A DNA stretch of 64,000 nucleotides from Mugil cephalus (lineage: Eukaryota > Chordata > Actinopteri > Mugiliformes > Mugilidae), in NCBI RefSeq assembly GCF_022458985.1, contig NC_061770.1, forward strand, positions 35,197,599 through 35,261,598, written 5' to 3'. The notes beneath the pieces were generated by a model, which worked only from the letters and a program-made list of their open reading frames with translations, searched no databases and had not been told where the DNA came from. The position numbers were made by a program, and so were the translations under genes. Positions within the stretch are counted from its first letter, which is position 1. Every line of letters starts with the position of its first letter. This document shows, in pieces, positions 8,470 through 61,800 of the stretch.

Positions 8470-8720
8470 CGTGTGGGAAGACAGAGTTGCCTAGTAGCCT
8501 ACTGCTGTTGGCTAGGCGAGTTAGCTGATGTCTTCTTGTTCGTTGCTAGCTGGAAGCTGACTGCTAGTCTGCTGGTTGGTTTTCAGTTGGACTGGGATTC
8601 TAAATGTGTTGAGCTAACTAGGCTAGTTAGATGATGTCTTTGAGTTGGTTGCTACCTGGTAGCTGACCGTAGCTTGCTGGTCAGTTTTCAGTTGGACTTG
8701 GATTCTAAATGTAGCAAAAG
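8470..8720. repeat. Minisatellite, about 105-bp unit (locus 1)
   Basis: About two copies of a unit containing cagttggact, then ctaactaggctagttag, then gtagctgac and gctggt. The cagttggac marker recurs at 8584 and 8689, giving a 105-bp period. The same unit forms a second array at 12155-12400. Confidence 0.75.
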
Positions 8721-12154: not shown

Positions 12155-12400
12155 CATCAGTTGGACAGAGCTTCTAAATATGTTTAGCTAACTAGGCTAG
12201 TTAGCTTGTGTCTTCTAGTTGGTTGCTAGCTGCTAGCTGACATCATAGCCTGCTGGTTGGCTTTCAGTTGGACTGGGCTTCTAAATATGTTTAGGTAACT
12301 AGGCTAGTTAGCTGGTGTCTTCTGGTTGGTTGCTAGTTGGTAGCTGACTGCTAGCCTGCTGGTTGATTTTCAGTTGGACTTAGTTTCTAAATGTGTTTAG
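12155..12400. repeat. Minisatellite, 106-107-bp unit (locus 2)
   Basis: Same unit as at 8470-8720. The cagttggac marker recurs at 12158, 12265 and 12371, giving periods of 107 and 106 bp. Arms such as gctaactaggctagttagct are near-palindromic. Confidence 0.8.
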
Positions 12401-23599: not shown

Positions 23600-25141
23600 G
23601 TCATGCATCGAGGCAACGAGTGGTTCTTAAAGAACGTTTAGAGTACACCAGATGCTTAGGAACAAGTCAAAGTTTTGACCTTAGAAATGTTGTAGCATCA
23701 GTTGATGAGAGGAAACCACCGTCTTCTCATAACTGAACCGGTTCTGATCTGATTAATGGGATCAAACTCCCCCAACTTGCTGTAAACGACTGATCAGCAG
23801 TTACCAGAAACATTTAGGATGGGGCTCACTGGCTTTTGCAACTCACAGATAGGTACAAGTGATTCATTTTCTTGAATAAACAAACACAAAGCCATAATAT
23901 TTCCGTTGCATTTGTTTGATTGCGTTCTGTTTGTCTACTTTTAGATGCTGTGAGAAAACGCAGGATATCCTCGGAAAGTTTCTTGTCTGTTTTCATTCAC
24001 AGTCATAGGTATTTACTGTATTAAAGCTGGGCTCAGGAACAGTCAGCTGGATTTATTCCGGTCTCAAAGGACTCAGACTACAGGAGTCCAGCCCCCCTCA
24101 CCCCCCCTCCAACCCCACATGCCCTACTCCTTAATTCTCTCTCAAACACACACTCTTCTAGCATTTCCCGTTTAGAAACATAAGTCTCCATTTTACTGAC
24201 CTGTCTTTGTTTTCATAGCAAACCCGGGGGGCCCTCTTCCTCCACACTGACATTGACAACTTTCGCTACTTCTCCATCGCATTCTTGCGGCAACTTAGCT
24301 GCAGTCATCATCTTGCAAAACTCCAACAGAATCCAGCTGCATCTAAGACGTTTTGTGCAGGGACAGGTATTGCTTTGTGTCCCGGGATTGTCTTGTCAGA
24401 GCCAGATGTGCGGTAATAGAGAGATGAGAGTCTTTTTCTCATTACCCCCTGAGAACCTGAGAACAATCAGGCAGGTTTATTTTACGTCTGCGCCTGTTGG
24501 ACCACCTCCAACTGCTACAACTACTACAAATTATGGAGCCAAAAAGAAGGAACCCCATTTTGACGAGCTACTAAACTCCTTAAGGGGCATGCATGTTAAA
24601 GTCCATCTGTTCACATTGTTAGGGGTAACAAAACTTGGTTCGTGACGTTATTATTTGTGTGTGTGTAAGCAAATGGCAGCATACCAAATTGACTCCTTGA
24701 ACAGTGATTATGAAAACCATATGACATGCTCTGAAAAAAGAAAGACCTCCCCCAACTCTGACACACAAATGCTCCCACCCCCATCTACCAACTTCTTCCA
24801 AAAACATAGAATTCTTTTCCTCCCTTCATCCCCCCCAGTTATGTCCACCCTGCCTTCTTGCTGTATCCCCCTCCTTCTCCCTTTTTACTCCCCTCCCACC
24901 CGGCTCTATGAAATCTCTGGACAATGTGCATTCACTCAACTCCACTACAGATCTCTCTCAGCCGGCTGGAGTGAGGAGCACAGGCAGTGTTAGGAAAGAA
25001 ACAAAAATATAGGGTTCAAATGATAGGGAGGAAGGGTGCAGATAGGCAACAGAAAAACACCAAGAAAAAAAATAGCATCAAGAAGAAACATTGAAAGGCG
25101 TGGAGAAAGCCAGGGATTTTATTCTTAAAAAAGAAAAGAGC
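23600..25141 (+). other. Upstream region of the CD248-like gene
   Basis: Immediately 5' of the receptor gene. It is pyrimidine-rich at 24740-24900, and no TATA box at a convincing distance was found. The 5' UTR probably begins somewhere in 24900-25100, since an in-frame TTG-led extension (25091) has no ATG. ORFs at 24253-24645 and 24655-24993 show no domain. A promoter is expected here but cannot be placed. Confidence 0.35.
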
Positions 25142-27286
25142 ATGGGTTCCCAGGTGAGCAGTGCCGCAGCTGTTCTCTTCACCTCTCTGCTGGCTTTGCT
25201 CATTGGATTTTCTTCAATCTTGGGCGAGGAGCTGAGAGAAAGGGATGCACTGTGTCACTCAGAAGGTTGCTTTGTTGTCTACTTTCAAAGGAAAACTTTC
25301 CTGGACTCCTGGAGGGCCTGCAAAGAGAACGGTGGCAACCTAGCCACCATCAAACGCAAGAAGGATGCCACCAGCATTACTAATCTCTTCCTCAATATGG
25401 ATTTGCCCCATTCCCATTCTAACGTCAGAGTCTGGATTGGCCTGCAGCGCCAGCCTCGCCAATGTTCTGCAACTCGCCCGCTGCGGGGATTTTCTTGGAC
25501 TACCGGCGACCAGGACACGGACTATACCAACTGGCAGAAGGAGGACTCCCCCAGTATGTGTTCAGTGCCACGCTGTGTGGTCATGGGCTACAGCACACAA
25601 GACCAGACTGATAACTTCAAGTGGCTGGATGGTTCTTGCTCAGTCCCTGTGGACGGGTATCTCTGCTATTACCCCTACAATGGAATGTGTCCTGCCTTGC
25701 AGAGTGAGGGGGCAGGAAACGCCCTCTACACCACGCCATTTAACCTCATAAGTACCCTGCTGACCCACATACCCATTGAATCTGTTGCTATCTTACCCTG
25801 CCCGCAAGGCACCAAGCAAGAACAGACAGTTGTGTGCACGCTGAGGGAGGATGGCTCGGCGGGGTGGTCAAGAGAAACCCCACTTTGCTCCAACCACTTA
25901 GTATCATTTAACTGGTGCGACCAAAACGGCGGCTGTGAGCATTTCTGCAGACCGGCCAATGGTCACTTCTACTGTGAATGTGCTGGAGGCTATCAGCTAG
26001 GAGATGATGGGAAAAGCTGTGAGCCGTATGACGTGTGTCAAGGGGCCCCCTGTGAATCTGAGTGCGTGCCCCTCCCAGATGGCTACCGCTGCGCCTGTCC
26101 CGACGGATACATGCTCGCGCAAGACGAACGCGGCTGCCTGGATGTGGACGAGTGCACCCAGAGTCCCTGCGAGCAGCTTTGTGAGAACGCGGAGGGGACA
26201 TTCGAGTGTCGGTGCTGGGAGGGTTACGAGCAAGACGACAAGGGTGGTTGTAAAGATATAGATGAGTGTATGAATGACCCGTGTGAACATGAATGTGAGA
26301 ACACTGAAGGATCTCATATCTGCCTCTGCAGTCTGGGGTTTTCCCCAGTGCCCGAGGATCCCAGCCGATGCCAGGACACTGATGAGTGCCAGATCCAAGG
26401 GACCTGTGAGCAGATGTGTGCGAATTATGACGGCGGATTTCAGTGCGACTGTGAGGAAGGCTATGAACTCCTGTCCGATCGCAGCTCGTGTCGAAAGACA
26501 GGGGAAGGGGACGGTCATTTCGCTGTCACCCCTCCCTATCCGTGGGCCACCCCCCAGCCCGGATATGAGTGGGACCCCACGGACTACGGCTGGGGGACCA
26601 CTAAGGAGGACCAGTTTCCAAACTGGCAGCCTGGGTGGGATTCTGAGTCTGGTTTGCATGTTATTTGGGTCACCCGTGCCCCAGAGACAGGACAACCGTT
26701 TGATTCAACAGTCTCCCCTGACACACACGGGACTGAGGAAGCTACAGACGTAGCTGAAGATGAAAGTTTGTCCACTACCACCTACACTACCACCTACACT
26801 ACCACCACGTCGACACCCAGTCCAACCTCCAACACTTTCTCAGACGAGTATGAAGGTGACGGTGAGGAAGTAAGTACGCCTTTTCCCTTCCTTTCCACCT
26901 CTGTGATATCTGAGGGAGCTTGGAATTGGTGGGACAGTCCGAGTCCAGAGTCAGATGAGACAGTAGATCATATCTCTACTGTTTTCACCCAGTCTACCGC
27001 CTCCCCGTCACCTTTAACCGAGGGCGCCGGACGTGACGACACCATGGTTCCTGCGGAGCCTGTAGACAAGGATCTAGGGCAGGGCAGAACCTGGCTCCTT
27101 TTAGGCCTCCTTCTGCCCATGTGCATCTTCATCGTGGTGATGGTGGCACTCGGTATCATCTACTGCTCCCACTGTGCTGTCCGGTCACGCAACACCAACG
27201 CCCCCGACTGCTACCACTGGATCTCTGGGGCCCAAGATAAACAGGGAGCTCCTAACCCCTCAGTAGGGGTCAAGACCCACGTGTAA
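25142..27286 (+). CDS. cd248: CD248 (endosialin)-like group XIV C-type lectin receptor
   Basis: Single-exon gene, 714 residues. The start ATG at 25142 has A at -3 and G at +4. The same frame is open 5' to 25091 but without ATG. Domain order: signal peptide (about 1-28); C-type lectin-like domain (about 38-176, with WIGL and WLDGSC but no EPN/WND calcium motif); sushi-like domain (about 183-249); five EGF-like repeats (about 259-451), the last three opening DVDEC, DIDEC and DTDEC as calcium-binding EGFs do. A Ser/Thr/Pro-rich stalk follows, then a membrane helix (about 651-675) and a 39-residue tail. The tail contains PDCYHW and ends THV, a class I PDZ-type end; both recall human CD248. Known CD248 is a stromal and pericyte surface glycoprotein binding matrix proteins. 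CD93 also has five EGFs, so CD93 is the main alternative, but its tail differs. Teleosts have a and b copies; which one this is was not resolved. Confidence 0.82.
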   Translation: MGSQVSSAAAVLFTSLLALLIGFSSILGEELRERDALCHSEGCFVVYFQRKTFLDSWRACKENGGNLATIKRKKDATSITNLFLNMDLPHSHSNVRVWIGLQRQPRQCSATRPLRGFSWTTGDQDTDYTNWQKEDSPSMCSVPRCVVMGYSTQDQTDNFKWLDGSCSVPVDGYLCYYPYNGMCPALQSEGAGNALYTTPFNLISTLLTHIPIESVAILPCPQGTKQEQTVVCTLREDGSAGWSRETPLCSNHLVSFNWCDQNGGCEHFCRPANGHFYCECAGGYQLGDDGKSCEPYDVCQGAPCESECVPLPDGYRCACPDGYMLAQDERGCLDVDECTQSPCEQLCENAEGTFECRCWEGYEQDDKGGCKDIDECMNDPCEHECENTEGSHICLCSLGFSPVPEDPSRCQDTDECQIQGTCEQMCANYDGGFQCDCEEGYELLSDRSSCRKTGEGDGHFAVTPPYPWATPQPGYEWDPTDYGWGTTKEDQFPNWQPGWDSESGLHVIWVTRAPETGQPFDSTVSPDTHGTEEATDVAEDESLSTTTYTTTYTTTTSTPSPTSNTFSDEYEGDGEEVSTPFPFLSTSVISEGAWNWWDSPSPESDETVDHISTVFTQSTASPSPLTEGAGRDDTMVPAEPVDKDLGQGRTWLLLGLLLPMCIFIVVMVALGIIYCSHCAVRSRNTNAPDCYHWISGAQDKQGAPNPSVGVKTHV

Positions 27287-33452: not shown

Positions 33453-34305
33453 CAGGGGCGCCACCAGGGATTTTGGGCCCCATGAAAAAAAGAAAAAAAA
33501 CATCACATTGGGACCCCCATCCATCATAAATAAATAAACTTATAACTGTAAAGAAAGTTAAACAAACTCTAAATAAATTAAGAGAATCCTCTAGAAATAA
33601 TGAAAACTGCAGTTTGGCTTGAGTAAGAACAAAGGACTCCTGGAAAGTCCAACTTTTTTTGCTCAGCCTAAATCCCCCAGTGTAGACCCTTCTTGGTGCA
33701 AGTTCATTCATCAAGTCTTTGAAGTCCAGCTTTCTATCCAACTGACTTTCAATGGACAACAAGGCAAGACTCTAAATCCTGTCCTGGGACATTGTGGACC
33801 TCAACTGTTTTTCTATTCTTTTTTTTTCTTTATCAGTTTTAGCTCACTGAACGCTCTCTTTCCACCAACAACAGTCAGAGGCAATGTAGAAAATATGAGT
33901 AAAACAATGCAGACTTCTACAAAAATGCTTGTTTTTTGGCATTCAAGAGACCAAGAGGGGACAAGTTAGGAGGACAAGTTGTCTCTCCTCTCCCTCCGTT
34001 GTCTCTTTCCTTTTTTTTTAAAACCAAATTTTTCTTTGCTATTGGACAACCTTGTGACTGATCCAGCAATTACAGGCCTGCACCACGATGCTCTAAGGTT
34101 GGACCAAACCATTTCATGCAGAGTCACGGGGGTGGTTGCTCATACCTTTTGATTAGTGGAGTCGAAACTAATGTGAAGAAATCCCGTATGTTTTGTTATT
34201 ATATTAAAAATTTGTCTTTCTTATGATATGGTTTAATAATTTTCTCCTTTTTTACTTTTCTTTTGGGGCCCCTGTCAGTCATGGGCCGTTGTTATTGCGC
34301 CACTG
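33453..34305 (-). mobile_element. hAT element with transposase remnant (853 bp)
   Basis: The left end is caggggcgccacc and the right end ttgcgccactg, giving termini of the CAGgGGCG type. An 8-bp target duplication with one mismatch flanks it: caccggac at 33445-33452 and catcggac at 34306-34313. On the minus strand, near 33690-33765, a short frame reads LSIESQLDRKLDFKDLMNEL. This resembles the conserved C-terminal end of hAT transposases. The rest of the transposase is gone. The left breakpoint of the 6.2-kb tandem duplication falls inside this element at 34062, so a truncated second right end exists at 40231-40498. Confidence 0.72.
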
Positions 34306-34855
34306 CATCGGACTAACATGATCAAATCCATATTTACGTAGCCAAATTGAATATTAGATTAGTTTAGTTAGACGTCTTTTTCAACAACATGCTGTTTTGT
34401 TCAGTACTTTTCAGTTTGAAATAGAAGCAGAACTGGACGGACTGACCAGAATCTGTTTTTTGTTTGTTTGTTTGTTTGTTTTTTTGTAAATTTTTCAGAA
34501 GCAAAATACACAGAAAAGAAAAGACAGCAAATTTGATATTTTCAGTGACTTGACGTATAGTACAATTTTATTTATATTAACCCAATAACAAACACAAATG
34601 AGGAAACAGAACCCCTGGGAAGCAGCTACGGAGACGACAGTAGAAAGGAAAAAACAAAAAACAAAAGAGGAAACCTGAGCGCTACCAGGGTTACATGGGG
34701 TGACCCAGCTGGGACACAGAGGGAGATGAATTCATATATCGGGACAGAACAAATGAATATGCTGAAACGTTAACAAACACAGATTTAGACGAGAGAGAGC
34801 TGATACTTAATAGTAAACATTTAATTTCTTTCTTAGTTTCTCACGGTAAAGAGGA

Positions 34856-35337
34856 CTGTGCAAAAGTTTTAGGCAAAAAAACAAAAAACAAAACAGCAAA
34901 TCAATATCTGGAGTTACTACAACTTGCTGTCAGGGGTTTTGCAGGATCGTAGATGGAGTTTAGGAAACTTGCAGATGAAAAACCCAGGTACAGTCATCAG
35001 CTGTCTGGAGAAATCTAGACTAGAAGTGACTTCATGGAAGAGTCGCAGCCAAAAATCCAAAACCTCCCACCAGGAAGCAAAGAAAAGAGACTCAACTATG
35101 CAGGAGAATATAAGAACTGGGGAACCAAGGAGTAACAGCAGGTGTTCTGGACTGATGAGTCAGAATGAAAAATAGTACTTGGCTTTAGCAGAAGATGGAG
35201 AGCGTGAACGATAACGAGTATCTGCAGGCAACGGGGAAGCATGGTGGAGGTTAGGTGCAATTACTCACAACTACAAATTTATTATTTATATTTTTTTAAA
35301 AAGCATCCTTAGTTACCTGCCTAAAACCTTTGCACAG
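34856..35337. mobile_element. Internally deleted Tc1-like element (in unit 1)
   Basis: Bounded by ctgtgcaaaagttttaggca and its inverted counterpart tgcctaaaacctttgcacag (one mismatch). The inside keeps scraps of a plus-strand Tc1 transposase in shifting frames, with AAKNPKPPTRK-like and ELGNQG-like pieces near 35045-35135. The 83-codon ORF at 34924-35175 is part of this debris, not a gene. Confidence 0.7.
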
Positions 35338-36252
35338 CTTCACAAGAACAACACTTAAATATTAACAACGAATATCTGTATAAAGATAGCAGTAGGACAT
35401 TATATATACGACTATGAAAAAATCTCCCTGACTGATTAGGCAACACCGGGGGTTAGTGCTGGAGGCGGCAAACAATGTTCGGTTGACTTTAGCATTTTGG
35501 CAATTTTTCCATCCATGTCAGTTGCCCTTTAGACTTCTACATTGTGACCACTTCCAAACATTGTGAAGGTCTCCATTGTGCCTCCTTGGGTCCTACGGGT
35601 TGAGGGGAGGGGCCTCTGTGGATCATCCCACAGATACTTTGGGATCTAGCGAATTTGGAGTCAGATCAGGCATGTTCCAGGGTGGGGGGTGTCTGGTCTG
35701 GTCTAGGTGGGTGCCACATGTCTAAGTATCATCCACATGAAAGAATGTCAAAGTTTCCCAACAGAACATTGAATTGTTACAAGACAAGGTCATAATGTTG
35801 TGGCTGATCGGTGTACATATGTCAGTGTACTTTTGTCAGTGGGCTCGGTAACACTTGTGTTAACCCATTCAGCAGTAGACGGTTCATTTAAGTCACATAA
35901 ATAAATAATTAAACTCTGACAAAAACATTTCACATTTAATATTTCTTCATCGCCCTCTCGGTGTCTCGTTCGATTTCTGAATCCAAATGTTTATAAGCCA
36001 ATAACTACGACTGTGGGCTTACATTCAAGTTGTGTTCAGTAGTGTGGCCTGTGACTTTAAGGTCCCAAAACTCTTAGAACACATCAGAGAATTCACATGT
36101 TGCTGATTCAGTCTTCTTTTGGCACACTGCCGAGGAGATTACAGGATATGACCAGTTCATGGTCATTAATTTCCTCTGTGCAGATCCAAGGCTGGGAAAT
36201 GTATCTTTACACATCTGCTACTCCCCCATTTAATTCTCATCCTTGGTGAATG
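35338..36252. other. Region 3' of receptor copy 1, with TcMar fragment
   Basis: A TcMar-family fragment covers about 35541-35813 and ends cataatgttgtggctgatcg before a TA. The remaining 36-36.25 kb should be the 3' UTR of the minus-strand receptor gene. No canonical AATAAA was placed with confidence. Confidence 0.5.
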
Positions 36253-37359
36253 TTAAACCGTAGTTGTACGAGAGGTGTACGTCCCGTTGCGGAAAACCAT
36301 ATCAGAAGCCATGCAGTCCTTGGGGAAGTCTAGGGGGTTACACGTTGCCTGTCTCTTTAATGCCACAGCACAGTAATCCACCTGTTCTGCATCCAGCCCG
36401 GACTCCAGCCACCGGAAACACACGATGCGCTGGAACGAACGCCGGAAGTTGTCCGACACGAAGCCGTACAGAATAGGGTTGGCGCCGCTGTTGGCGTAGC
36501 TGAGGATGACGAAAAGCTGGGTGACCATGGGATCGGGAGGCCGGTGGAAAACGCTGACCAGCTGGACGATGTAGAACGGCATCCAGCAGAGAATGAACAC
36601 CGTCACGACCAGAAGCACCATACGCGTGATCTTCTTCTCCGAGCGCCGCCGCTGAAGCCACCCAGCCTTCAGTCCCACTGCTCGCATTCTGGCCACCATC
36701 AGACAATAGCATAAGCAGATGGCTCCAACCGGCAGGAGAAACCCCAGCAGGAAGGTGTAGACCACGAACGCTTCTGACCACACGGCCTCAGGCCACAAGA
36801 AGTTGCAGTCCACGCCACCATCCTGCGCGGGGACGGTGTCTGCAAAGATAATGATGGGCAGGATGACGACGAGCGAAAGCCCCCAGACGCAAACATTGAC
36901 CACTTTGGCGACAGTCGGTCTGCGGTAGCGAGCGGCCTTGATCGGGTGGACCACCGCCACGTACCGGTCCACACTCAGCACAGTCAGGCAGAAGATGGAC
37001 GTAAACATGTTGATGCCGTCCACGCTCAACACCAGTCTGCACATCAGCGACCCAAAGGGCCAGTGACGGACCGCCGCCGACGTGGCCAGGAAGGGAACGC
37101 TCAGCATGAACAGCTCGTCGGCGATGGCCAAGTTGAGAATATAAATGTTTGTGGCTGTTTTCATCTTGGCGTATTTCAGGATCACGTAGATGACCATGGC
37201 GTTGCCGATGAGACCCACACAACAGACGAGGGCGTAGATGGATGGGATGATGATTTTACTGGTGCTGGTGTCCTGGTAGTAGTCCTCATAGTCCATGCTT
37301 GCGTTGTAGGGCGGCCTCGTTGGATAGGCCCAGTAGTCGTGGCTCTCATTAAAATCCAT
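36253..37359 (-). CDS. Somatostatin receptor (SSTR4/SSTR6 type), copy 1
   Basis: Intronless class A GPCR, 368 residues. The ATG at 37357-37359 has A at -3 and G at +4; a longer frame would need a GTG. Visible features: N-glycosylation sites at N4 and N19, seven membrane helices, TM2 Asp81, C107-C185 disulfide pair, TM3 Asp114 (the residue that binds the ligand lysine in this family), D131-R-Y, a likely palmitoylated C314, and a TTTV end of PDZ type. Segments [20 protein letters not shown] and [18 protein letters not shown] are near-identical to SSTR1/SSTR4. RHWPFGS, SVDGxNMFTS, IFADT and [10 protein letters not shown] favour the SSTR4 side. The neighbouring CD248-like gene suggests SSTR6. SSTRs couple to Gi and inhibit secretion and adenylyl cyclase. 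Oddity: the family signature YANSCANP reads YANSGANP (Gly292). Sister copy at 42447-43553 differs only at residue 16 (Pro here). Confidence 0.93.
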
Positions 37360-38590
37360 TGTCACCTGTGGTGGATACGTGATGCCGTTTTTCTACTTGA
37401 CAGGATCAAACAGCAGTCTCCTCCATCGACAGGTAAGTATCTGGCTGTTAACAGACACCGGTCATGCAAGTTTCTGATGGGTAACATCCACCGATATTCC
37501 TGTTTAAACCCCTCCACCAGTCCGGTCAAGACTTGGATGAAACGTCTTCAGTAAACCCAATAAGTCCAGTTGTCTGTCTTTCGCATTTTTTGGGCATTTT
37601 GTGGTTCTGATCAGATCCTGGTTTCTTCTTTGTCGAGGAATTACACGTTTGAAGTGAAATTCCTCACAGACATTGACGGAAAGTACATGACGAAAACATC
37701 CACGGATAGACAGTACCAAAGAACATCTTCATATTGGGAGAGAAAGTGATGTTCTTGAGTAATAAAAGAAAGAAAAACATGGACACTGTTTTCGCAGTTC
37801 ACATGTCCTTCATTTTCCTGGATCTTTTGTGTCAGGACGGGTCCAGACAACCTTGATCATTCACTTCCGCTTAGCAACAGAAAACCTTCTTTTTAAGGCA
37901 TCTGTCATTGCTCGTCCGTTGCATGTAACAACATTCATAGTGTTCTGATGAAAAGTCAGATGAGGCCATTATGATGCCGTACACGACTCAATCTGTCGAC
38001 TGAAACTCTTTGTTCTGGCAGCTATTGTTCGACTAAACGTGCTGTTGTTCGCCTCCTGGGCTCAGGTTGTTTTGTTGAGCTGCGGTCTTTTTACAGAGTG
38101 AAGAGAAGCCACATTTCTTGCTGAAACCTCTCCTCGGGACACAATAAGCTTCGATTTTCTGGGACGTTGGTAATGAGAACCTGCGAGAAAGTAAAATAAC
38201 TGTCACTTGATTTGTCTCTGTCACCAAGCATCTAAATACAACTACTGAGTGACAAAACACAACACAATGCATTGTCCTTTCCCTCCAGATTCTTTAAAGT
38301 TGACTGTTATGTGATGAAAGTCGAATCGGCACTGACTAGTCACTAGTAATGAAATCTATATCCTTGACCTACATACAGTGAGCTGCAGCCTGTATAAAAA
38401 CCGGCAGCACCATCTGTAGTGTTTAATAGTACTCCACAATGTGTTGTTAGATGGGATATTTCTCTGCAGCTAAAAGTCTAATAACCTTATCAAATTGCTG
38501 ATGTGCAGCCTCCTTCTCCAGGAAGCAATTTCAGACTGTACGGCAAATTATTTGTAGGCATGCAACTACTTGTGCCTTTGGGATTCATCT
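37360..38590. other. 5' flank of receptor copy 1
   Basis: Leader and upstream region of the minus-strand receptor. Bases 37231-37625 differ strongly from the sister copy while the rest is almost identical. A perfect donor-like AGGTAAGTAT lies on the plus strand at 37431, and TATAAAAA on the plus strand at 38395; both point away from the receptor. No minus-strand TATA box was found. Confidence 0.5.
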
Positions 38591-38596
38591 CATATC

Positions 38597-38815
38597 ATCT
38601 TCCATAAACGCTTATCCTCTAGGGGCGCGGAGTTTACTAGAGCCTATTGCAGCTGTCACCGGGCAAGAGGCAGGGTACACCCTGCACAGGTCGCCAGTTT
38701 TTTCGTAGGGCTAACACATGGAAAAACAATCATTCGCACGCAGTCACACCTAGGGTCAATTTAGGGTCACCGATCAGCTTAAGGGACAAGTCATCGGAGG
38801 TGGGAGGAAACTGGA
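38597..38815 (+). repeat. Dispersed repeat R3 (in unit 1)
   Basis: Carries gtcaccgggcaagaggcagg, gtacaccctgcacaggtcgc, tagggtcaatttagggtcac and ggaggtgggaggaaactgga, the usual R3 order. It lacks the final acatgcaaactccac block. Confidence 0.75.
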
Positions 38816-40230
38816 GTTCCTGAAGAGGTTTTAGACTGGAAATGTTTATGATCCTCATCATGGTGACTTCCTACATACATACAATAATTACAGTAAAGGT
38901 TACACATATACCTTAACGCACATATATATACAGTCTGTATATATATATATATATATACCGTCTTGTTCATTAAAGTACATTCAGATTAATTGAAAGTATC
39001 TATTTTCAGACACTTTCTCAAATGACGATTATTACCTAAGAAAACTTAAAGGGTAAACAAGAGCTCTGGAACATGTGCCTGTCTATGGCAAGAATACTGC
39101 ACAACTAAAATAAGAAACATGGCGCCGTCTGCTGGCTCTGCTACTCCCATATTTAGGGATATCAACAGATTAGTTACAAGATCCCTAACGTAAAGTCTTA
39201 AACCTCAAACAATCTTGAACAAGGAAGAAGTGATGATTAGAATGAGCGAAATGCTCATTTTGCACAGATGTCCTCACTCCCAAGTGGTCCCCAGAAAGAC
39301 AGCTACACAACAACACACACTTGTCAATGTTCTCACTTATACTCAATGCCAGGTCTTTTCTTTTCTTCCCCTTTTACTATACAGGTATAGAAGACACCTT
39401 CATGGCACTCTGCTTTACAGTAAGACCGTTAAGGCTTTCAGTATTGCTGCATATCCACAACAATAGGCAACCAACCATCAGATCAAAAGCATGAACACCT
39501 TCTTCCATTATTTTCCTGTGATACCAACTTTATCCTAGTTCATAATCGTACTTATGTGGTTAGACTGCTTCTACCTTCCTGCTGCTGTTAGGATCCACAA
39601 TGAACATTTGTAATACTATTACACCTCAAGGTTGTAGTCTTCAGTCTCATGTTAGCATTCATCTGTTAGCACTCGTTTGTTAGCTCACTATTTCAGACTA
39701 TTGTCTACTAGTAATGGTAAATGGTCTTGCTTTTATATAGAACTTTTTTATCTATGTTTACTCAAAGCTCTTTACAGTCACAGAGGCTCAGTGTCTGGCT
39801 CAAGGACACTTAAGTATGTGGCACATTCCAGGGATTGATCCACTAACCTTTCTACCTACTGGGGTACGGTCGCCCATTGTCTCCCACAAGCAGTGTAACC
39901 ACAAAAAATGGACCCACCAATTTTTAATTTTATTCGAATACAAATGCCCTTTTTCCCCTCAACAAATACAAATACTAGATGCTTTGCACACCTCCAATTG
40001 CTTGTAAACCTGTTAAAGATGACATTTAGGCAGTATTAACACCTGTTGGCTCAAGGCACCGCGCCACAGCTCCACAAGTTTAAGACAGACATAATTCGAT
40101 TTTCTTTCTTCACACAACATTAGTCAGTTCCCCCCGGAAGGCTTCGTTCTTTCTGGTACGACTCCTTTTTTTTTTGTACTCTGTGTAAAGGGATTCCTCA
40201 ATTATTTACTTACATTGACCTTCCCTTCAC
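38816..40230. other. Non-coding remainder of unit 1
   Basis: Includes a TA microsatellite at about 38939-38957. The short ORFs at 39215-39466 and 39816-40007 are identical in both units, simply because the DNA is; none shows a domain. Confidence 0.5.
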
Positions 40231-41047
40231 TCCAGCAATTACAGGCCTGCACCACGATGCTCTAAGGTTGGACCAAACCATTTCATGCAGAGTCACGGGG
40301 GTGGTTGCTCATACCTTTTGATTAGTGGAGTCGAAACTAATGTGAAGAAATCCCGTATGTTTTGTTATTATATTAAAAATTTGTCTTTCTTATGATATGG
40401 TTTAATAATTTTCTCCTTTTTTACTTTTCTTTTGGGGCCCCTGTCAGTCATGGGCCGTTGGAACTGTCCTAACTTTTCCCGCCTATATTGCGCCACTGCA
40501 TCGGACTAACATGATCAAATCCATATTTACGTAGCCAAATTGAATATTAGATTAGTTTAGTTAGACGTCTTTTTCAACAACATGCTGTTTTGTTCAGTAC
40601 TTTTCAGTTTGAAATAGAAGCAGAACTGGACGGACTGACCAGAATCTGTTTTTTGTTTGTTTGTTTGTTTGTTTTTTTGTAAATTTTTCAGAAGCAAAAT
40701 ACACAGAAAAGAAAAGACAGCAAATTTGATATTTTCAGTGACTTGACGTATAGTACAATTTTATTTATATTAACCCAATAACAAACACAAATGAGGAAAC
40801 AGAACCCCTGGGAAGCAGCTACGGAGACGACAGTAGAAAGGAAAAAACAAAAACAAAAGAGGAAACCTGAGCGCTACCAGGGTTACATGGGGTGACCCAG
40901 CTGGGACACAGAGGGAGATGAATTCATATATCGGGACAGAACAAATGAATATGCTGAAACGTTAACAAACACAGATTTAGACGAGAGAGAGCTGATACTT
41001 AATAGTAAACATTTAATTTCTTTCTTAGTTTCTCACGGTAAAGAGGA

Positions 41048-41530
41048 CTGTGCAAAAGTTTTAGGCAAAAAAACAAAAAACAAAACAGCAAATCAATATC
41101 TGGAGTTACTACAACTTGCTGTCAGGGGTTTTGCAGGATCGTAGATGGAGTTTAGGAAACTTGCAGATGAAAAACCCAGGTACAGTCATCAGCTGTCTGG
41201 AGAAATCTAGACTAGAAGTGACTTCATGGAAGAGTCGCAGCCAAAAATCCAAAACCTCCCACCAGGAAGCAAAGAAAAGAGACTCAACTATGCAGGAGAA
41301 TATAAGAACTGGGGAACCAAGGAGTAACAGCAGGTGTTCTGGACTGATGAGTCAGAATGAAAAATAGTACTTGGCTTTAGCAGAAGATGGAGAGCGTGAA
41401 CGATAACGAGTATCTGCAGGCAACGGGGAAGCATGGTGGAGGTTAGGTGCAATTACTCACAACTACAAATTTATTATTTATATTTTTTTAAAAAGCATCC
41501 TTAGTTACCTGCCTAAAACCTTTGCACAGC
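41048..41530. mobile_element. Internally deleted Tc1-like element (in unit 2)
   Basis: Copy of 34856-35337 carried along by the duplication; same inverted termini. It is not an independent insertion. Confidence 0.7.
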
Positions 41531-42446
41531 TTCACAAGAACAACACTTAAATATTAACAACGAATATCTGTATAAAGATAGCAGTAGGACATTATATATA
41601 CGACTATGAAAAAATCTCCCTGACTGATTAGGCAACACCGGGGGTTAGTGCTGGAGGCGGCAAACAATGTTCGGTTGACTTTAGCATTTTGGCAATTTTT
41701 CCATCCATGTCAGTTGCCCCTTTAGACTTCTACATTGTGACCACCTTCCAAACATTGTGAAGGTCTCCATTGTGCCTCCTTGGGTCCTACGGGTTGAGGG
41801 GAGGGGCCTCTGTGGATCATCCCACAGATACTTTGGGATCTAGCGAATTTGGAGTCAGATCAGGCATGTTCCAGGGTGGGGGGTGTCTGGTCTGGTCTAG
41901 GTGGGTGCCACATGTCTAAGTATCATCCACATGAAAGAATGTCAAAGTTTCCCAACAGAACATTGAATTGTTACAAGACAAGGTCATAATGTTGTGGCTG
42001 ATCGGTGTACATATGTCAGTGTACTTTTGTCAGTGGGCTCGGTAACACTTGTGTTAACCCATTCAGCAGTAGACGGTTCATTTAAGTCACATAAATAAAT
42101 AATTAAACTCTGACAAAAACATTTCACATTTAATATTTCTTCATCGCCCTCTCAGTGTCTCGTTCGATTTCTGAATCCAAATGTTTATAAGCCAATAACT
42201 ACCACTGTGGGCTTACATTCAAGTTGTGTTCAGTAGTGTGGCCTGTGACTTTAAGGTCCCAAAACTCTTAGAACACATCAGAGAATTCACATGTTGCTGA
42301 TTCAGTCTTCTTTTGGCACACTGCCGAGGAGATTACAGGATATGACCAGTTCATGGTCATTAATTTCCTCTGTGCAGATCCAAGGCTGGGAAATGTATCT
42401 TTACACATCTGCTACTCCCCCATTTAATTCTCATCCTTGGTGAATG
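41531..42446. other. Region 3' of receptor copy 2, with TcMar fragment
   Basis: Duplicate of 35338-36252, including the TcMar fragment at about 41737-42007. A handful of single-base and one-base indel differences are visible relative to unit 1. Confidence 0.5.
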
Positions 42447-43553
42447 TTAAACCGTAGTTGTACGAGAGGTGTACGTCCCGTTGCGGAAAACCATATCAGA
42501 AGCCATGCAGTCCTTGGGGAAGTCTAGGGGGTTACACGTTGCCTGTCTCTTTAATGCCACAGCACAGTAATCCACCTGTTCTGCATCCAGCCCGGACTCC
42601 AGCCACCGGAAACACACGATGCGCTGGAACGAACGCCGGAAGTTGTCCGACACGAAGCCGTACAGAATAGGGTTGGCGCCGCTGTTGGCGTAGCTGAGGA
42701 TGACGAAAAGCTGGGTGACCATGGGATCGGGAGGCCGGTGGAAAACGCTGACCAGCTGGACGATGTAGAACGGCATCCAGCAGAGAATGAACACCGTCAC
42801 GACCAGAAGCACCATACGCGTGATCTTCTTCTCCGAGCGCCGCCGCTGAAGCCACCCAGCCTTCAGTCCCACTGCTCGCATTCTGGCCACCATCAGACAA
42901 TAGCATAAGCAGATGGCTCCGACCGGCAGGAGAAACCCCAGCAGGAAGGTGTAGACCACGAACGCTTCTGACCACACGGCCTCAGGCCACAAGAAGTTGC
43001 AGTCCACGCCACCATCCTGCGCGGGGACGGTGTCTGCAAAGATAATGATGGGCAGGATGACGACGAGCGAAAGCCCCCAGACGCAAACATTGACCACTTT
43101 GGCGACAGTCGGTCTGCGGTAGCGAGCGGCCTTGATCGGGTGGACCACCGCCACGTACCGGTCCACACTCAGCACAGTCAGGCAGAAGATGGACGTAAAC
43201 ATGTTGATGCCGTCCACGCTCAACACCAGTCTGCACATCAGCGACCCAAAGGGCCAGTGACGGACCGCCGCCGACGTGGCCAGGAAGGGAACGCTCAGCA
43301 TGAACAGCTCGTCGGCGATGGCCAAGTTGAGAATATAAATGTTTGTGGCTGTTTTCATCTTGGCGTATTTCAGGATCACGTAGATGACCATGGCGTTGCC
43401 GATGAGACCCACACAACAGACGAGAGCGTAGATGGATGGGATAATGATTTTACTGGTGCTGGTGTCCTGGTAGTAGTCCTCATAGTCCATGCTTGCGTTG
43501 TAGGGCGACCTCGTTGGATAGGCCCAATAGTCGTGGCTCTCATTAAAATCCAT
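42447..43553 (-). CDS. Somatostatin receptor (SSTR4/SSTR6 type), copy 2
   Basis: Intronless, 368 residues, ATG at 43551-43553 with A at -3 and G at +4. The protein equals copy 1 except residue 16, Ser here and Pro in copy 1, in the extracellular N-terminus between the two glycosylation sites. All receptor landmarks listed for copy 1 (Asp81, C107-C185, Asp114, DRY, TTTV end, and the unusual Gly292) are kept. Both frames are intact, so neither is a pseudogene by sequence. This copy keeps the ancestral upstream DNA through 48 kb, including a TATA box and candidate first exon at 47870-48067; copy 1 instead has unit 2 upstream. It may therefore hold the original promoter. Subtype assignment carries the same doubt as for copy 1. 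Confidence 0.93.
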
Positions 43554-44790
43554 TGTCACCTTTGGTGGATACGTGATGCAGATTTTCTACTTGACAGGAT
43601 CAAACAGCAGTCTCCTCCATCGAGAGGTAAGTATCTGGCCGTTAACAGACACCAGTCATGCGAGTTTCTGATGGGTAACATCCACCGATATTCCTGTTTA
43701 AACCCCCAACTCCTCCACCAATCCGGTCAAGACTTGTTTGAAACGTCTTCAATAAACCCAACAAGTCCAGTTATCTGTCTTTCGCATTTTTTGGGCATTT
43801 TGTGGTTCTGATCAGATCCTGGTCTCTTCTTTGTCGAGGAATTACACGTTTGAAGTGAAATTCCTCACAGACATTGACGGAAAGTACATGACGAAAACAT
43901 CCACGGATAGACAGTACCAAAGAACATCTTCATATTGGGAGAGAAAGTGATGTTCTTGAGTAATAAAAGAAAGAAAAACATGGACACTGTTTTCGCAGTT
44001 CACATGTCCTTCATTTTCCTGGATCTTTTGTGTCAGGACGGGTCCAGACAACCTTGATCATTCACTTCCGCTTAGCAACAGAAAACCTTCTTTTTAAGGC
44101 ATCTGTCATTGCTCGTCCGTTGCATGTAACAACATTCATAGTGTTCTGATGAAAAGTCAGATGAGGCCATTATGATGCCGTACACGACTCAATCTGTCGA
44201 CTGAAACTCTTTGTTCTGGCAGCTATTGTTCGACTAAACGTGCTGTTGTTCGCCTCCTGGGCTCAGGTTGTTTTGTTGAGCTCGCGGTCTTTTTACAGAG
44301 TGAAGAGAAGCCACATTTCTTGCTGAAACCTCTCCTCGGGACACAATAAGCTTCGATTTTCTGGGACGTTGGTAATGAGAACCTGCGAGAAAGTAAAATA
44401 ACTGTCACTTGATTTGTCTCTGTCACCAAGCATCTAAATACAACTACTGAGTGACAAAACACAACACAATGCATTGTCCTTTCCCTCCAGATTCTTTAAA
44501 GTTGACTGTTATGTGATGAAAGTCGAATCGGCACTGACTAGTCACTAGTAATGAAATCTATATCCTTGACCTACATACAGTGAGCTGCAGCCTGTATAAA
44601 AACCGGCAGCACCATCTGTAGTGTTTAATAGTACTCCACAATGTGTTGTTAGATGGGATATTTCTCTGCAGCTAAAAGTCTAATAACCTTATCAAATTGC
44701 TGATGTGCAGCCTCCTTCTCCAGGAAGCAATTTCAGACTGTACGGCAAATTATTTGTAGGCATGCAACTACTTGTGCCTTTGGGATTCAT
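43554..44790. other. 5' flank of receptor copy 2
   Basis: Equivalent to 37360-38590. The leader differs from unit 1 at about thirteen positions plus an extra 8-base stretch (ccaactcc) near 43708. Beyond about 43830 the two copies are almost identical again. Confidence 0.5.
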
Positions 44791-44798
44791 CTCATATC

Positions 44799-45017
44799 AT
44801 CTTCCATAAACGCTTATCCTCTAGGGGCGCGGAGTTTACTAGAGCCTATTGCAGCTGTCACCGGGCAAGAGGCAGGGTACACCCTGCACAGGTCGCCAGT
44901 TTTTTCGTAGGGCTAACACATGGAAAAACAATCATTCGCACGCAGTCACACCTAGGGTCAATTTAGGGTCACCGATCAGCTTAAGGGACAAGTCATCGGA
45001 GGTGGGAGGAAACTGGA
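44799..45017 (+). repeat. Dispersed repeat R3 (in unit 2)
   Basis: Duplicate of the R3 copy at 38597-38815. Confidence 0.75.
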
Positions 45018-46437
45018 GTTCCTGAAGAGGTTTTAGACTGGAAATGTTTATGATCCTCATCATGGTGACTTCCTACATACATACAATAATTACAGTAAAG
45101 GTTACACATATACCTTAACGCACATATATATACAGTCTGTATATATATATATATATATACCGTCTTGTTCATTAAAGTACATTCAGATTAATTGAAAGTA
45201 TCTATTTTCAGACACTTTCTCAAATGACGATTATTACCTAAGAAAACTTAAAGGGTAAACAAGAGCTCTGGAACATGTGCCTGTCTATGGCAAGAATACT
45301 GCACAACTAAAATAAGAAACATGGCGCCGTCTGCTGGCTCTGCTACTCCCATATTTAGGGATATCAACAGATTAGTTACAAGATCCCTAACGTAAAGTCT
45401 TAAACCTCAAACAATCTTGAACAAGGAAGAAGTGATGATTAGAATGAGCGAAATGCTCATTTTGCACAGATGTCCTCACTCCCAAGTGGTCCCCAGAAAG
45501 ACAGCTACACAACAACACACACTTGTCAATGTTCTCACTTATACTCAATGCCAGGTCTTTTCTTTTCTTCCCCTTTTACTATACAGGTATAGAAGACACC
45601 TTCATGGCACTCTGCTTTACAGTAAGACCGTTAAGGCTTTCAGTATTGCTGCATATCCACAACAATAGGCAACCAACCATCAGATCAAAAGCATGAACAC
45701 CTTCTTCCATTATTTTCCTGTGATACCAACTTTATCCTAGTTCATAATCGTACTTATGTGGTTAGACTGCTTCTACCTTCCTGCTGCTGTTAGGATCCAC
45801 AATGAACATTTGTAATACTATTACACCTCAAGGTTGTAGTCTTCAGTCTCATGTTAGCATTCATCTGTTAGCACTCGTTTGTTAGCTCACTATTTCAGAC
45901 TATTGTCTACTAGTAATGGTAAATGGTCTTGCTTTTATATAGAACTTTTTTATCTATGTTTACTCAAAGCTCTTTACAGTCACAGAGGCTCAGTGTCTGG
46001 CTCAAGGACACTTAAGTATGTGGCACATTCCAGGGATTGATCCACTAACCTTTCTACCTACTGGGGTACGGTCGCCCATTGTCTCCCACAAGCAGTGTAA
46101 CCACAAAAAATGGACCCACCAATTTTTAATTTTATTCGAATACAAATGCCCTTTTTCCCCTCAACAAATACAAATACTAGATGCTTTGCACACCTCCAAT
46201 TGCTTGTAAACCTGTTAAAGATGACATTTAGGCAGTATTAACACCTGTTGGCTCAAGGCACCGCGCCACAGCTCCACAAGTTTAAGACAGACATAATTCG
46301 ATTTTCTTTCTTCACACAACATTAGTCAGTTCCCCCCGGAAGGCTTCGTTCTTTCTGGTACGACTCCTTTTTTTTTTGTACTCTGTGTAAAGGGATTCCT
46401 CAATTATTTACTTACATTGACCTTCCCTTCACTCCAG
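45018..46437. other. Non-coding remainder of unit 2
   Basis: Same content as 38816-40230. The TA microsatellite at about 45141-45159 has the same length as in unit 1. Confidence 0.5.
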
Positions 46438-56461: not shown

Positions 56462-59400
56462 TTACTGGGCCGGGGTGCACCGGTGGCTCTTGTAGGTGCC
56501 CAGGTGGCGGAAGCTCCGCCCACACTGTTGGCAGCAGTACGGCGTGGCCCCGCTGTGGATCCTCTGGTGGGTGTACAGGTTCCCCAGCTCCTTGAAGCGG
56601 CGGCCACACTGAGGGCAGGCGTAGGGGCTCTCGCCGGTGTGCACCCGTTGGTGTCTCTTGAGTCCGGAAAGGACGGAGAAGCCTTTCCCACACTGGGGAC
56701 AAGGGAAGGGGCTCTGGGCGCCGCTGTGGACCAACCGGTGGCTCTTTAAGCGGGCGGCGTGGCGGAACCTCTCCCCGCACTCCGGACACATGAAGGGCTT
56801 CTCTCCGGTGTGGATGCGCTGGTGTTGCCGCAGGTTGCCAAGGTAGTTGAAGTGACGGCCGCACTCCCCGCACTGATACCCTCCTTCGATTTTAATCTCC
56901 TTCTTCATGAGCCCTTCCCCTTGACCGGCGCCGCCGGAAGCCAGTCCCGCGCCGCACTCGTTTTTCCCACCCGCCACCCGCCTGGAGTCACTGCCGCCGT
57001 CTCCCATCGCGGGGACCGCGGAGGAGGAGGAGGTGGACTGGAGGGCCTGGAGACCTTGACCACCAGGACCGGAGTCCAGGTGTATGAGTTTGACGTGCTC
57101 CTCCAGGAACACAGAGTCGGGGCAAAAGGTCCCACACAGGGAGCAGATGTAGGGGTGGCTGGTAAACTGCTGGCCTGAAACAAGAAACGTTTAATGAATT
57201 AAGGTGGAAAACGATCGGTCAACCATCCCAATGGTTAACATCCAAGTCTTAGCTGGTAAACCTTCTGAACCATGAAAATCTGGTGCCAGGTTGTCTACAT
57301 GTGTCTGTAGAGGCTCTGGTTAGATGTTCTGAAGGACATGTAAGGGAGTCCTGCTATGATGGTTCTCGTCCAGTCTGAGGATTTAACAAAAGTCCATTTT
57401 GCAAATGCGTCATAAAATAATCACCTTTTAAGAGCCATTTTATGTTTTATTTTCTTCTTTTTTTGATTGCTGAGCATAATTTATTCACTTTTTTTTCCAG
57501 CAGCCAAGCCCTGATCCCCAGGCCTTGGTAGTTTACCTCTTATCATTCCAGCCTATTGAAGATATACCCAAAGTAAATTGGATGTTTTTCATGCACACTT
57601 TGGTGCTCATTCATGGTCTTGGTCTCTTTTGAAACCCAAGACTCTGAAGTTTCTATCACTAAAGTCAGAATCACTCTAAGTGGTATAGTTCTTTAGTAAT
57701 CAAAGTTGGCACACAGTTAAAAAATAAGAATTATTTTGTTTTGAAACTCAAACACAACTTGTGTACAGAGCTTTGATTGGTTCAAAAAGATACCAAAGTC
57801 CCATATATGACCCAGAGGAACGTTAAAGGGTTAATAAAGCCAAGAACGGGTACCAGCACCATTAGTTTCTATAGAACACAGTACATTGCTGTCCTTGGTC
57901 CGTAAACGTGCTTTGCGTTCTTAAATTATGAGATGGAATTATAATTTAAATTGATGTCCTTCTCACATGTCAGCAATTTTTTTCGTTCTTTCGTTTTTTT
58001 TTTTGTATGTATTATATATACGTAAATATACATACGGACAACTTTTATGCACAAAACTTTAAAAAAGTTCCTGAAAATACAGACTGATCATCAGCCTCGT
58101 TGCTTGTGATTTGCTCGTAACAAAAGTTGGTGTTGACAACTTACAATCCACTAGTCTGACCGACACCTCCCTCACCTGCCTCGGGTCTGTCTGCGTTGCC
58201 CTCAAGGGAACTCCCTCCCTCCTCTGGAGAGCTCGGAGCCTCCATGGAGAACTCGGAGGGCTGGCCGATCGAGAGCGGAGCTTGGGCGTCCTCCAGTTCC
58301 TCTGCTTCCCTTCGGGACGACTCGTCTTCATTGTCGTCGTCCTCCGTGTCGCCACTTTGGTGGTTCTCACACTCCGGCTCCTTTGCGACTGAAGGGGGGG
58401 GGGGTTAACATAGAGACATATTATTATTGGTATTATAGTTGTAACTGTGACTAAACAATCACTATAATAACGTGCTTTGTAATAATATAAGGTATTCTGT
58501 GTTCTGATTATCTGTATGAATTACCTACACAGCACTTTGACTGAAAGCCCTTTATAAGTACAATAATAATTATTATTATTAGGTTGCTATTAACACCACT
58601 TGTGCTCCCACACACACATATTTTGTTGACACTTTGTCTGTTCATATCTGTATTGTCTCATTTCACAATTTAAAATGTATATATATGAATACACACACAC
58701 ACATATATACATATATATATACAGAAGAAAGAAAAATTATTAAAATAAATGGAGCCAGGGACTGAAGAGTAAGGGTGGGAAAAAATACTGATATGGCAAT
58801 ATATTGCGATATTTTTTCTTCCGATACAATATCAATTTTGAATATCTTATTATCGATTTTAAAAGAAAAAGAAGAAGATACGTTTTGGGCCAATGTTGAA
58901 CGACTTCCACACCACCACTGCCACTTTACAAGTGCAATAAATTGGAAATGGATCGTTTGGATTACTCTCGTTTTTTTTTTACTCAATTTTTCCAGTGAAT
59001 TATCGCTGATGTCACCTGATGAACATATATACAATGTGTATTTTAAGCTGCATTTAAAACTTCTCAGTGTAGAACATTGCGATATATCGCAAAAATGTAT
59101 TGCACCGTGACTGAAGTATCGATACGTATCGTTAAGTCTTTGCCAATATCCACCCCCTACTGAATAGAGTGAAAGAATGTTTAAAAAGAGAAGTCACCAG
59201 TAATAAAATGTAATAAAGTGTAGTAAAATTATATTCTCCAGCTTTAGAAAAGACGCGCTAGAGAAACATTTAGGTTATTTACTTCTCCTGCCTGTGGTCA
59301 TAATGTTGTGGCTGATCGGCCGTGTATTTTTTAAGCGCAGACAACGCGTGTTTACCTTTCGCGTCTGCAGAATACTCCATCGGTGCTATCCACTCGTAGT

Positions 59401-60064
59401 CGTACATGCGTTTGCTGCCGGAGGGGAGCATGCCGAAGATGTCATCCGCAGGCCCGGATCCGACCATCCCGTTATCCGGCCACAGGTGCAGGGAGTGCGG
59501 CTCCGGTTCCGACCGAGCGTCCCTGTCACCGCTGCTGGCTTGGTCGCTGCTCTGGTCCCCGTCCACGTCGGCGCAGCCTCTCGAGTTCTTGTCCTTCATC
59601 AGGTAGTCACAGATCGCGTTAATGTTCTCCTTCTTCACGCCGGGCATGGCCGCCTTGGCTCTCCTCGGGTCCGGGTTGTTGTTGTTGTTGTTGTTGTTGT
59701 GCTTCTTGAAGCCCGGTTCCGCAGACGACTCCGCGGTGGCTGCGGAACCGGGGTACGCGTCCCTGGCGTCCCCGTGCACCGTCTCCAGTCTCGCCTTCAG
59801 CTCGTGGATCTCCTCCGTCTTCTGGCGCAGCTCCATTTTCAGGACCCGTATCCGGAGGCTGACCATCTTGCGGATCTCGGACAGCGCCGTCTCCAGCACC
59901 ACCGTGATGTTCCTGCCCAGGTGCTCCGTGATGTCGCTCACCGAGCACAGGAGCTCCTCGTCGGGCTCCAACTCCAGAAAATCGCCCTCGGCTCGACCCA
60001 CCGACCCGGGAGACTCCATGAAGGCGCAGCGGAGTTCGGGGGAGAGACTCGATTTGCGACTCAT
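56462..60064 (-). CDS. Coiled-coil C2H2 zinc-finger protein (three exons)
   Basis: Minus-strand join of 59356-60064, 58176-58388 and 56462-57174 gives one open frame of 544 residues. Donors are AAAG|GTAAAC and GCAG|GTGAGG. Acceptors are TTCAG|TC and TTTCAG|GCC. Both introns are phase 1. Exon 1: acidic start, helical coiled-coil stretch at about 52-95 (EIRKMVSLRIRVLKMEL), eight consecutive Asn (123-130), and a sumoylation-type VKKE (143-146). Exon 2: a Glu/Asp/Ser-rich linker. Exon 3: an atypical finger (C318, C321, H334, H339), IKIE (401-404), and fingers at 409-429, 437-457, 466-486 and 494-514 with TGEKPF-type linkers. A sixth finger has lost its last His. The layout resembles teleost coiled-coil zinc-finger families, so a nuclear DNA-binding regulator is inferred; I do not recognise the specific member or target. 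Confidence 0.82.
57175..58175 (-). other. Intron 2 of the zinc-finger gene
   Basis: About 1.0 kb between exons 2 and 3, AT-rich with a TA-rich patch near 58005-58035. No embedded gene is seen. Confidence 0.7.
58389..59355 (-). other. Intron 1 of the zinc-finger gene
   Basis: About 0.97 kb. It holds a TA/CA-rich patch (58676-58725), an hAT miniature element (58770-59159), and a TcMar terminus fragment (about 59295-59326, ggtcataatgttgtggctga) ending 30 bases before the exon 1 donor. Confidence 0.75.
58770..59159. mobile_element. hAT-type miniature element (390 bp) in intron 1
   Basis: The left end taagggtgggaaaaaata and right end, in reverse, taggggtggatattgg form inverted termini. Sub-terminal palindromic stretches (atattgcgatat, gatacgtatc) are typical of such elements. 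An 8-bp target duplication with one mismatch flanks it: ctgaagag at 58762-58769 and ctgaatag at 59160-59167. No transposase is present. Confidence 0.75.
59679..59702 (-). repeat. Trinucleotide repeat coding for poly-Asn
   Basis: Eight AAC codons in a row (gtt on the plus strand) inside exon 1 of the zinc-finger gene, coding residues 123-130. A pure codon repeat of this kind can vary in length between individuals. Confidence 0.85.
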
Positions 60065-60424: not shown

Positions 60425-61800
60425 ATTAATGTTTTTTTTTCTTATTTTTTTCAGCATAAATCTCTCAAACCACTTCAGCACTTTACAAAACTACCAAAGA
60501 AATCAATTATTTTTCAGGTTTTTAACCCTTTGAATGGTAGTTTGATTACTTAAAGTCACTGATATGAAAAAAATGTGGGAAAAAAAGTCAAAAATATCCC
60601 ATTGACTTCCATTATAACTTCATTTTTTGACCTCTCAGCGGTGACACAATAAAATAATTCATTCTGGAATATTAAGGTTTAATTTATGAGAAACATTATT
60701 GTCATTTCTAATGTTCTACAGTAAAATCAATATTTTCCCTGTTACAGGGCCTATGAATCCATAAAATGTTTTTTATTTCATTAGTTTTTGTGCTTGTGTT
60801 CCAAAAATTGCTATAAAAACTGAACTGATTAATATTTTTTTCTTGTTTTGTTTCTGCACAAATCCTTAAACCACGTCAGCGTTTTACAAAACTACTAAAA
60901 GTTCAATCATTTTGCAGATTTTAACCATTTAAATGCCAGTTTGATTACTTAAAGTCACTGTTATGAAAAAAATGTGGGAAAAAAAGTCAAAAATATCCCA
61001 TTGACTTCCATTATAACTACATTTTTTGACCTCTCAGCGGTGACACAATAAAATAATTCATTCTGGAATATTAAGGTTTAATTTATGAGAAACATTATTG
61101 TCATTTTTAATGTTTGCACTAAAATCAATCATTTCCCTGTTACAGGGCCTATGAATACATAAAATGTTTTTTATTTCATTAGTTTTTGTGCTTTTGTTCC
61201 AAAAGCTGCTATAAAAACTGAACTGATTAATATATTTTTTCTTGTTTTGTTTCTGCACAAATCTCTTAAACCACGTCAGCGTTTTACAAAACTACTAAAA
61301 GTTCAATCATTTTGCAGATTTTAACCATTTAAATCCCAGTTTGATAACTTGAAGTCACTGTCATGAAAACAAAAACAAAAAAAACAACAAAAAAAAATGT
61401 GAAAAGTTAGTTTTCACAAAACTAATATTGGGGGGCTGCGGTTTTTCTTTTTTTTTCAAATCAGTCTTGGATTTGACCAAGATTATACAAAAATATCGAC
61501 TCGATTGCATTATTAGTTTTTGTTGTAGCATCAGGTTTAAAATTTACCCTCTTTTAACCTTAGCAGGTAAAAATATCCCATTGACTTCCATTATAACTAC
61601 AATCTTTGATCTCTCAGCCATGACACAATAAAATGATTCATTCTGGAATATTTGGGTTTAATTTAAGAGAAAAATGGTCAAAATTGTCATTTTTAGTGGT
61701 CAACACTAAAATCAGCCATTTCTCCATTTATAGGGCCCATGAATAAAATGTTTGTTATGTCATTAGTTATTGTGCTTGTGTCTTTGAGCTCAGCAGGTTA
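60425..61800. repeat. Tandem repeat, about 400-bp unit, three copies
   Basis: The marker cccattgacttccattataa occurs at 60598, 60997 and 61577. The first two units are 399 bp apart and close in sequence. The third is more diverged and carries an insertion of roughly 180 bp. Each unit includes acaaaactac, a poly-A with gtgggaaaa, gacacaataaaatga-type and tacagggcctatgaat-type blocks. The family is not recognised and no frame is kept. Confidence 0.8.

Follow-up and report, generated by a model that had tools for sequence, protein, structure and literature searches.

A tandem pair of receptor genes

The window (the whole stretch of DNA analysed, 64 kb, positions 35,197,599–35,261,598 of contig C1 in a 634.8-Mb assembly of 24 contigs) contains a direct repeat of ~6.2 kb, whose two copies lie head to tail at an offset of 6169–6202 bp in the self-alignment. 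Each copy comprises an intact receptor gene of 368 codons, as had been claimed in an earlier note on this DNA and as is borne out by the self-alignment and by the open reading frames (ORFs); both genes are located on the minus strand. The following features belong to the repeat (positions in the window):

34062–40230, plus strand: duplicated unit, copy 1, 6169 bp (self-alignment)
40231–46437, plus strand: duplicated unit, copy 2, 6202 bp plus the common 5-bp TCCAG at its end (self-alignment)
40231–40235: internal junction with TCCAG microhomology; the 5 bp recur at 34062–34066 and 46433–46437
36253–37359, minus strand: copy 1 of the receptor gene, with one coding exon and a product of 368 aa from the ATG at 37359 (the start proposed by the ORF finder is a GTG at 37365)
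42447–43553, minus strand: receptor gene copy 2, 368 aa, with Ser16 in place of Pro16, ATG at 43553
40461–40484: 24-bp stretch of copy 2 missing in copy 1 (alignment), beside 34292 and 230 bp from the left end of the unit
38585–38827: dispersed repeat within unit 1 (unit positions 4524–4766)
39645–40001: dispersed repeat within unit 1 (unit positions 5584–5940), which stops 229 bp short of the junction

In the global alignment of the two units, 99.6% of the aligned base pairs are identical (6146 matches against 22 substitutions); there are six internal indels, one of 24 bp, one of 7 bp and four single-base ones, besides an end effect of 5 bp. BLASTN, with gaps counted, gives 99.1% identity over 6208 columns. 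The substitution at 34292 is part of a complex indel at the site of the 24-bp difference. Among the 1-bp indels, those at 34656 and 35525 are differences in homopolymer length and that at 35551 is a C/CC difference, a pattern that residual sequencing error would give. At both ends of the unit the copies are identical, over 230 bp on the left and 2.1 kb on the right, and the longest run that is identical with respect to substitutions measures 2608 bp (P 0.00025, 20,000 draws). The junction is exact, with TCCAG common to the start of the left unit, the junction and the end of the right unit, so that the earlier note's position 40231 for the internal junction holds within the 5-bp ambiguity. According to the equal-base formula, microhomology of 5 bp or more is expected in ~0.5% of random joins. 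No N bases occur in the 64-kb window or in 264 kb around the locus, hence the junction is gap-free.

Neither receptor ORF is interrupted (368 codons from the ATG, 370 from the upstream GTG), and the two differ at five codons, four of them synonymous. The fifth, Pro16Ser, located in the N-terminus before the first helix, is the only amino acid difference, in agreement with the single changed residue noticed previously. The Pfam domain 7tm_1 of class A GPCRs was identified in both copies (1.1e-69, residues 54–300 of the 370-codon ORF), and the DRY, CWxPF and NPxxY motifs are intact in copy 1, from which copy 2 differs at residue 16 only. The best PDB matches of copy 1 are SSTR1 (499 bits) and SSTR4 (448), followed by SSTR2 (372), SSTR5 (357), SSTR3 (317) and the best opioid receptor (270). 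Together the Pfam and PDB matches uphold the earlier note's identification of the proteins as somatostatin receptors, the closest solved relatives being SSTRs rather than opioid or other related receptors. The prokaryotic library NCBIfam yielded no matches for two proteins, and Rfam none at gathering score within the window.

Within 264 kb, the receptor unit pair is the sole direct repeat of at least 1 kb at ~99% identity. An older tandem duplication of ~18 kb (C1:35116265–35127635 vs 35134181–35145973, L014–L017), 84–97% identical in pieces, sits about 50–80 kb left of the window; its left copy contains an ORF with ephrin-receptor ligand-binding and cysteine-rich domains and a tyrosine-kinase exon. 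Thus, this neighborhood has been duplicated more than once. The window contains also a 399-bp tandem repeat (60434–61369, 2.3 copies, 92% matches) and, ~3.6 kb apart, two short tandem arrays of 106–107-bp units (8512–8712 and 12157–12400) that look alike by eye. On the minus strand, a C2H2 zinc-finger ORF and an ORF with no Pfam match (56462–57112 and 59279–60064) may form one zinc-finger gene. To the right of the window lie a SOX-type HMG-box gene (L029:127–909, minus strand) and an ORF combining IGFBP and Kazal domains (L025:7773–8264, plus strand).

Receptor subtype and neighboring genes

The PDB comparison places the receptor in the SSTR1/4/6 branch, nearer to SSTR1 and SSTR4 than to SSTR2, SSTR3 and SSTR5. 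The next-best match in the genome after the pair itself is 54% identical (115 matches listed in the genome search). The same comparison covered four further SSTR-like loci, all nearest to receptors of the 2/3/5 branch: SSTR3 for L003 and L005, SSTR5 for L007 and SSTR2 for L008, the lead over the other receptors of this branch being small for L007 and L008. Two more loci, L004 and L006, were inspected by eye only. The pair thus appears to be the sole representative of the 1/4/6 branch among the SSTR-like loci compared, and apparently the only such receptor in the genome.

The subtype was approached through the neighborhood and the literature. The neighboring gene that bears on it lies outside the duplication:

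25091–27286, plus strand: gene of the group XIV C-type lectin kind (thrombomodulin/CD93/CD248), with EGF-type domains (Pfam)

This lectin/EGF gene, for which thrombomodulin and CD93 (the C1q receptor) are the best PDB matches, is single and located 9 kb from receptor copy 1. Its relatives form adjacent pairs on C17 and C21, while the one on C15 looks single. Adjacent pairs are the arrangement expected of CD93 and thrombomodulin, which are linked in every gnathostome analysed according to the available part of PMC9167495. The gene at 25091–27286 is therefore most likely CD248, with CLEC14A as the other candidate. At 35 kb to the left of the window there is a Pellino gene. Human CD248 and PELI3 are near each other on chromosome 11. 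A lone CD248-like neighbor together with a Pellino gene, considered alongside this proximity in human, favors the assignment of the pair to teleost SSTR6, which is probably the correct subtype, rather than SSTR1.

In the accessible portion of their paper, Ocampo Daza et al. describe SSTR4 as lost in ray-finned fishes, zebrafish as the one species with SSTR1 among the teleosts studied, and SSTR6 as present in teleosts, gar and coelacanth (PMC3560075). Nomenclature is in conflict: as far as the available text of the survey PMC6504862 goes, it recognizes in fish and coelacanth a subtype SSTR1B, which may equal the SSTR6 group, and mentions that the name SSTR6 had been used for another, SSTR2-like group. 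Tilapia lacks SSTR1, SSTR4 and SSTR6 according to the part of PMC11224465 at hand, which is inconsistent on medaka.

A divergent stretch at the 5' end of the genes

The earlier note missed that the differences between the units are unevenly spread and concentrated in one patch at the 5' end of the receptor genes. The patch and the repeat used for its polarization are the following:

37231–37623: divergent patch in copy 1, codons 1–43 and 264 bp upstream of the ATG, with 18 of the 22 substitutions
43425–43824: counterpart in copy 2, including 7 bp missing in copy 1 (alignment)
37400–37593: old dispersed repeat within the patch, taken as an outgroup, with at least 39 partial matches elsewhere in the genome

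When the 22 substitutions were placed uniformly, the maximum within one 400-bp stretch was 10 in 20,000 draws, against the 18 observed. The two-rate figures use 21 substitutions, 34292 having been dropped as part of an indel: 18 in 393 bp of the patch (4.6%, 95% interval 2.7–7.2%) and 3 in the 5776 bp outside (0.05%, 95% interval 0.01–0.15%), with a gain in log-likelihood of 41.1 vs a maximum of 12.6 in 1000 shuffles. The patch is sharply bounded, at a distance of 2.6–3.2 kb from the breakpoints, and its divergence is unlike that of the flanks, as looked for in an island of conversion or exchange. CpG decay was considered as a source of the cluster and rejected, since a CpG is present at too few of the substitution sites (7 of 22). 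Constraint is a poor explanation for the identity outside the patch, since coding sequence is the minor part there and old dispersed repeats occur in it. At a neutral rate of 2–4e-9 per site per year, 4.6% would correspond to 6–11 million years and 0.05% to ~0.1 million, values to be taken as orders of magnitude only. The description of the duplication as recent thus fits ~94% of the unit (the 3 substitutions in 5776 bp) and fails for the 393-bp patch.

The dispersed repeat, whose listed matches are 70–88% identical to the locus, made it possible to ask which copy carries the derived state. Twenty of the at least 39 matches were aligned, giving 23 stretches against copy 1 and 24 against copy 2; the family covers 10 of the 14 non-coding sites compared in the patch and leaves four uncovered. 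At seven of the ten sites the majority base of the family is that of copy 1 (37430, 37446, 37468, 37520, 37536, 37537 and 37572, of which 37446 and 37468 have weak support and 37536 and 37537 could reflect a single event); at the remaining three it is that of copy 2 (37460, 37551 and 37561). The 7 bp absent from copy 1 and present in copy 2 are filled in most of the aligned family stretches, and the overall closeness to the family is nearly equal (summed bit scores 2124 vs 2117). Single sites may mislead at 70–88% identity, but the picture from all ten is less easily set aside. Both copies seem to bear derived changes of their own, which suggests that the patch represents two old, separate lineages and therefore not new mutation in one copy alone. 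One-sided hypermutation of one copy is accordingly disfavored by the polarization. The matches listed for this genome include the patch in full length twice, with no third such copy and no donor. Another copy of the dispersed repeat is an unlikely source for a conversion of the patch, both because the patch runs into coding sequence beyond the repeat and because the matches listed include no third full-length copy.

Origin of the pair and its expected consequences

The locus contains no N and the join falls exactly on 5 bp of microhomology, and for these reasons a real duplication appears likelier than an assembly artefact; the junction would point to microhomology-mediated repair or template switching. 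The assembly artefact, put forward previously as the main alternative, is weakened by the gap-free microhomology junction. One form of it would be a heterotype (allelic) false duplication, in which the two haplotypes of one locus were set in series by the assembly. Such false copies are likewise adjacent and near-identical, and the available text of PMC9516828 puts false duplication, mainly of this kind, at 4–16% of three earlier vertebrate assemblies; here, heterozygous sites in clusters would resemble the divergent patch, and the homopolymer indels between the copies fit as well. However, gaps between false copies are commonest in the same text, while not a single N lies between or near the copies in 264 kb, and a join exactly at a 5-bp microhomology is not what this explanation leads one to expect, so we regard it as unlikely. 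A somewhat less than even chance is given to a duplication that is real but polymorphic, carried by one haplotype or some individuals only and with no fixed role. The very low divergence outside the patch agrees with it, and a true allele-specific tandem duplication is mentioned among the assemblies studied in PMC9516828, as far as its accessible part goes; this possibility overlaps with our preferred reading, and the odds of the two are not exclusive.

Our preferred reading, to which we assign a probability of roughly two in three, is that a single SSTR1/4/6-branch gene, most likely SSTR6, was truly duplicated in tandem, with a unit that is mostly young and a 393-bp island at the 5' end that is older. 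The duplication step would have been a microhomology-mediated event at TCCAG, and the island would have been brought in by gene conversion or exchange, the simplest source of such deeply diverged sequence being another haplotype; alternatively, the two units could derive from different homologues. Either way, the island would be older than the duplication rather than mutated since, and mutation after a single recent duplication does not yield the patch pattern. The opposite order of events is possible, though doubtful: an older tandem pair, diverged by 4–5%, was homogenized by gene conversion or unequal exchange except in the 5' patch, which was perhaps spared by selection for two promoters. 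The derived changes in both copies within the patch agree with such an older pair, as do the ~5.8 kb of near-identical flanks, for which, being mostly non-coding and including old repeats, constraint is no explanation. The older pair nevertheless requires homogenization on either side of the patch, and it has to account for the identity of both ends of the unit, 230 bp at the left and 2.1 kb at the right, although conversion is expected to be least effective near breakpoints. It is this identity that makes us prefer a recent duplication with an imported island, while the 24-bp indel and its accompanying substitution, 230 bp inside the left end, lean against the preference. A stronger version of the older pair, millions of years of age, homogenized by conversion except for a promoter and N-terminal island kept apart by selection, is improbable; if true, it would mean two separately regulated copies of what is apparently the only receptor of the SSTR1/4/6 branch. 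Break-induced replication is known to give clustered substitutions, and clustered mutation of one copy by error-prone repair synthesis during the duplication would be comparable, but the patch lies 2.6–3.2 kb away from the breakpoints and derived changes are apparently present in both copies, which makes this origin very improbable.

As for the consequences of a recent duplication with an imported island, both copies would make near-identical receptors, Gi-coupled as inferred from the family. Copy 2 retains the original distal upstream sequence, while in copy 1 the native upstream sequence ends after ~2.9 kb, where the 3' flank of copy 2 begins. Hence the locus, described in the earlier note as complete, was duplicated in full as regards the coding gene, but may be incomplete in copy 1, whose native upstream sequence is limited to this length. 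Since the proteins differ by one residue and the upstream flanks differ, any functional difference would more likely lie in expression than in ligand binding or pharmacology. Ten upstream ORFs are present per copy within 400 bp of the ATG, three of which in copy 2 are brought into the frame of the ATG by the 7-bp indel; changed upstream ORFs were rejected as a consequence with a clear effect, since these in-frame ORFs all stop before the ATG. Between 900 bp upstream and 150 bp inside the gene, TATAAA, TATAAG, GGGCGG and GTAAGT were not found in either copy, and one CCAAT is present in both. Growth hormone release is restrained by somatostatin receptors, and a change in copy number of a receptor of the SSTR1/4/6 branch would be a testable natural experiment on dosage in the growth axis. 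Likewise, divergence concentrated at the 5' end would be a natural experiment on conversion sparing or importing regulatory sequence. Tandem duplication of single genes is common, and the general interest of the case is to that extent moderate.

Among known systems, the teleost SSTR6 is a receptor of the same 1/4/6 branch; in the available part of PMC3560075 it is represented by one gene per genome, with two in trout via the salmonid genome duplication, whereas a local tandem pair is found here. The coelacanth SSTR2/SSTRX, described in the same part of that paper, is likewise a lineage-specific SSTR duplicate on one scaffold and in one orientation, but it concerns another subtype and is described as faster evolving. 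In the open-licence full-text literature, to the extent of the text available, we found no report of a tandem SSTR6 pair or of tandem copy-number variation of a fish SSTR, and one may exist elsewhere. The tandem opsin pairs of fishes with gene conversion, a subject with which a paper on the long-wave opsins of anabantoids (PMC11291592) reportedly deals, are also duplicated GPCR genes, but of another receptor family; in the Mugil cephalus pair it is the upstream side and the N-terminus that form the divergent part.
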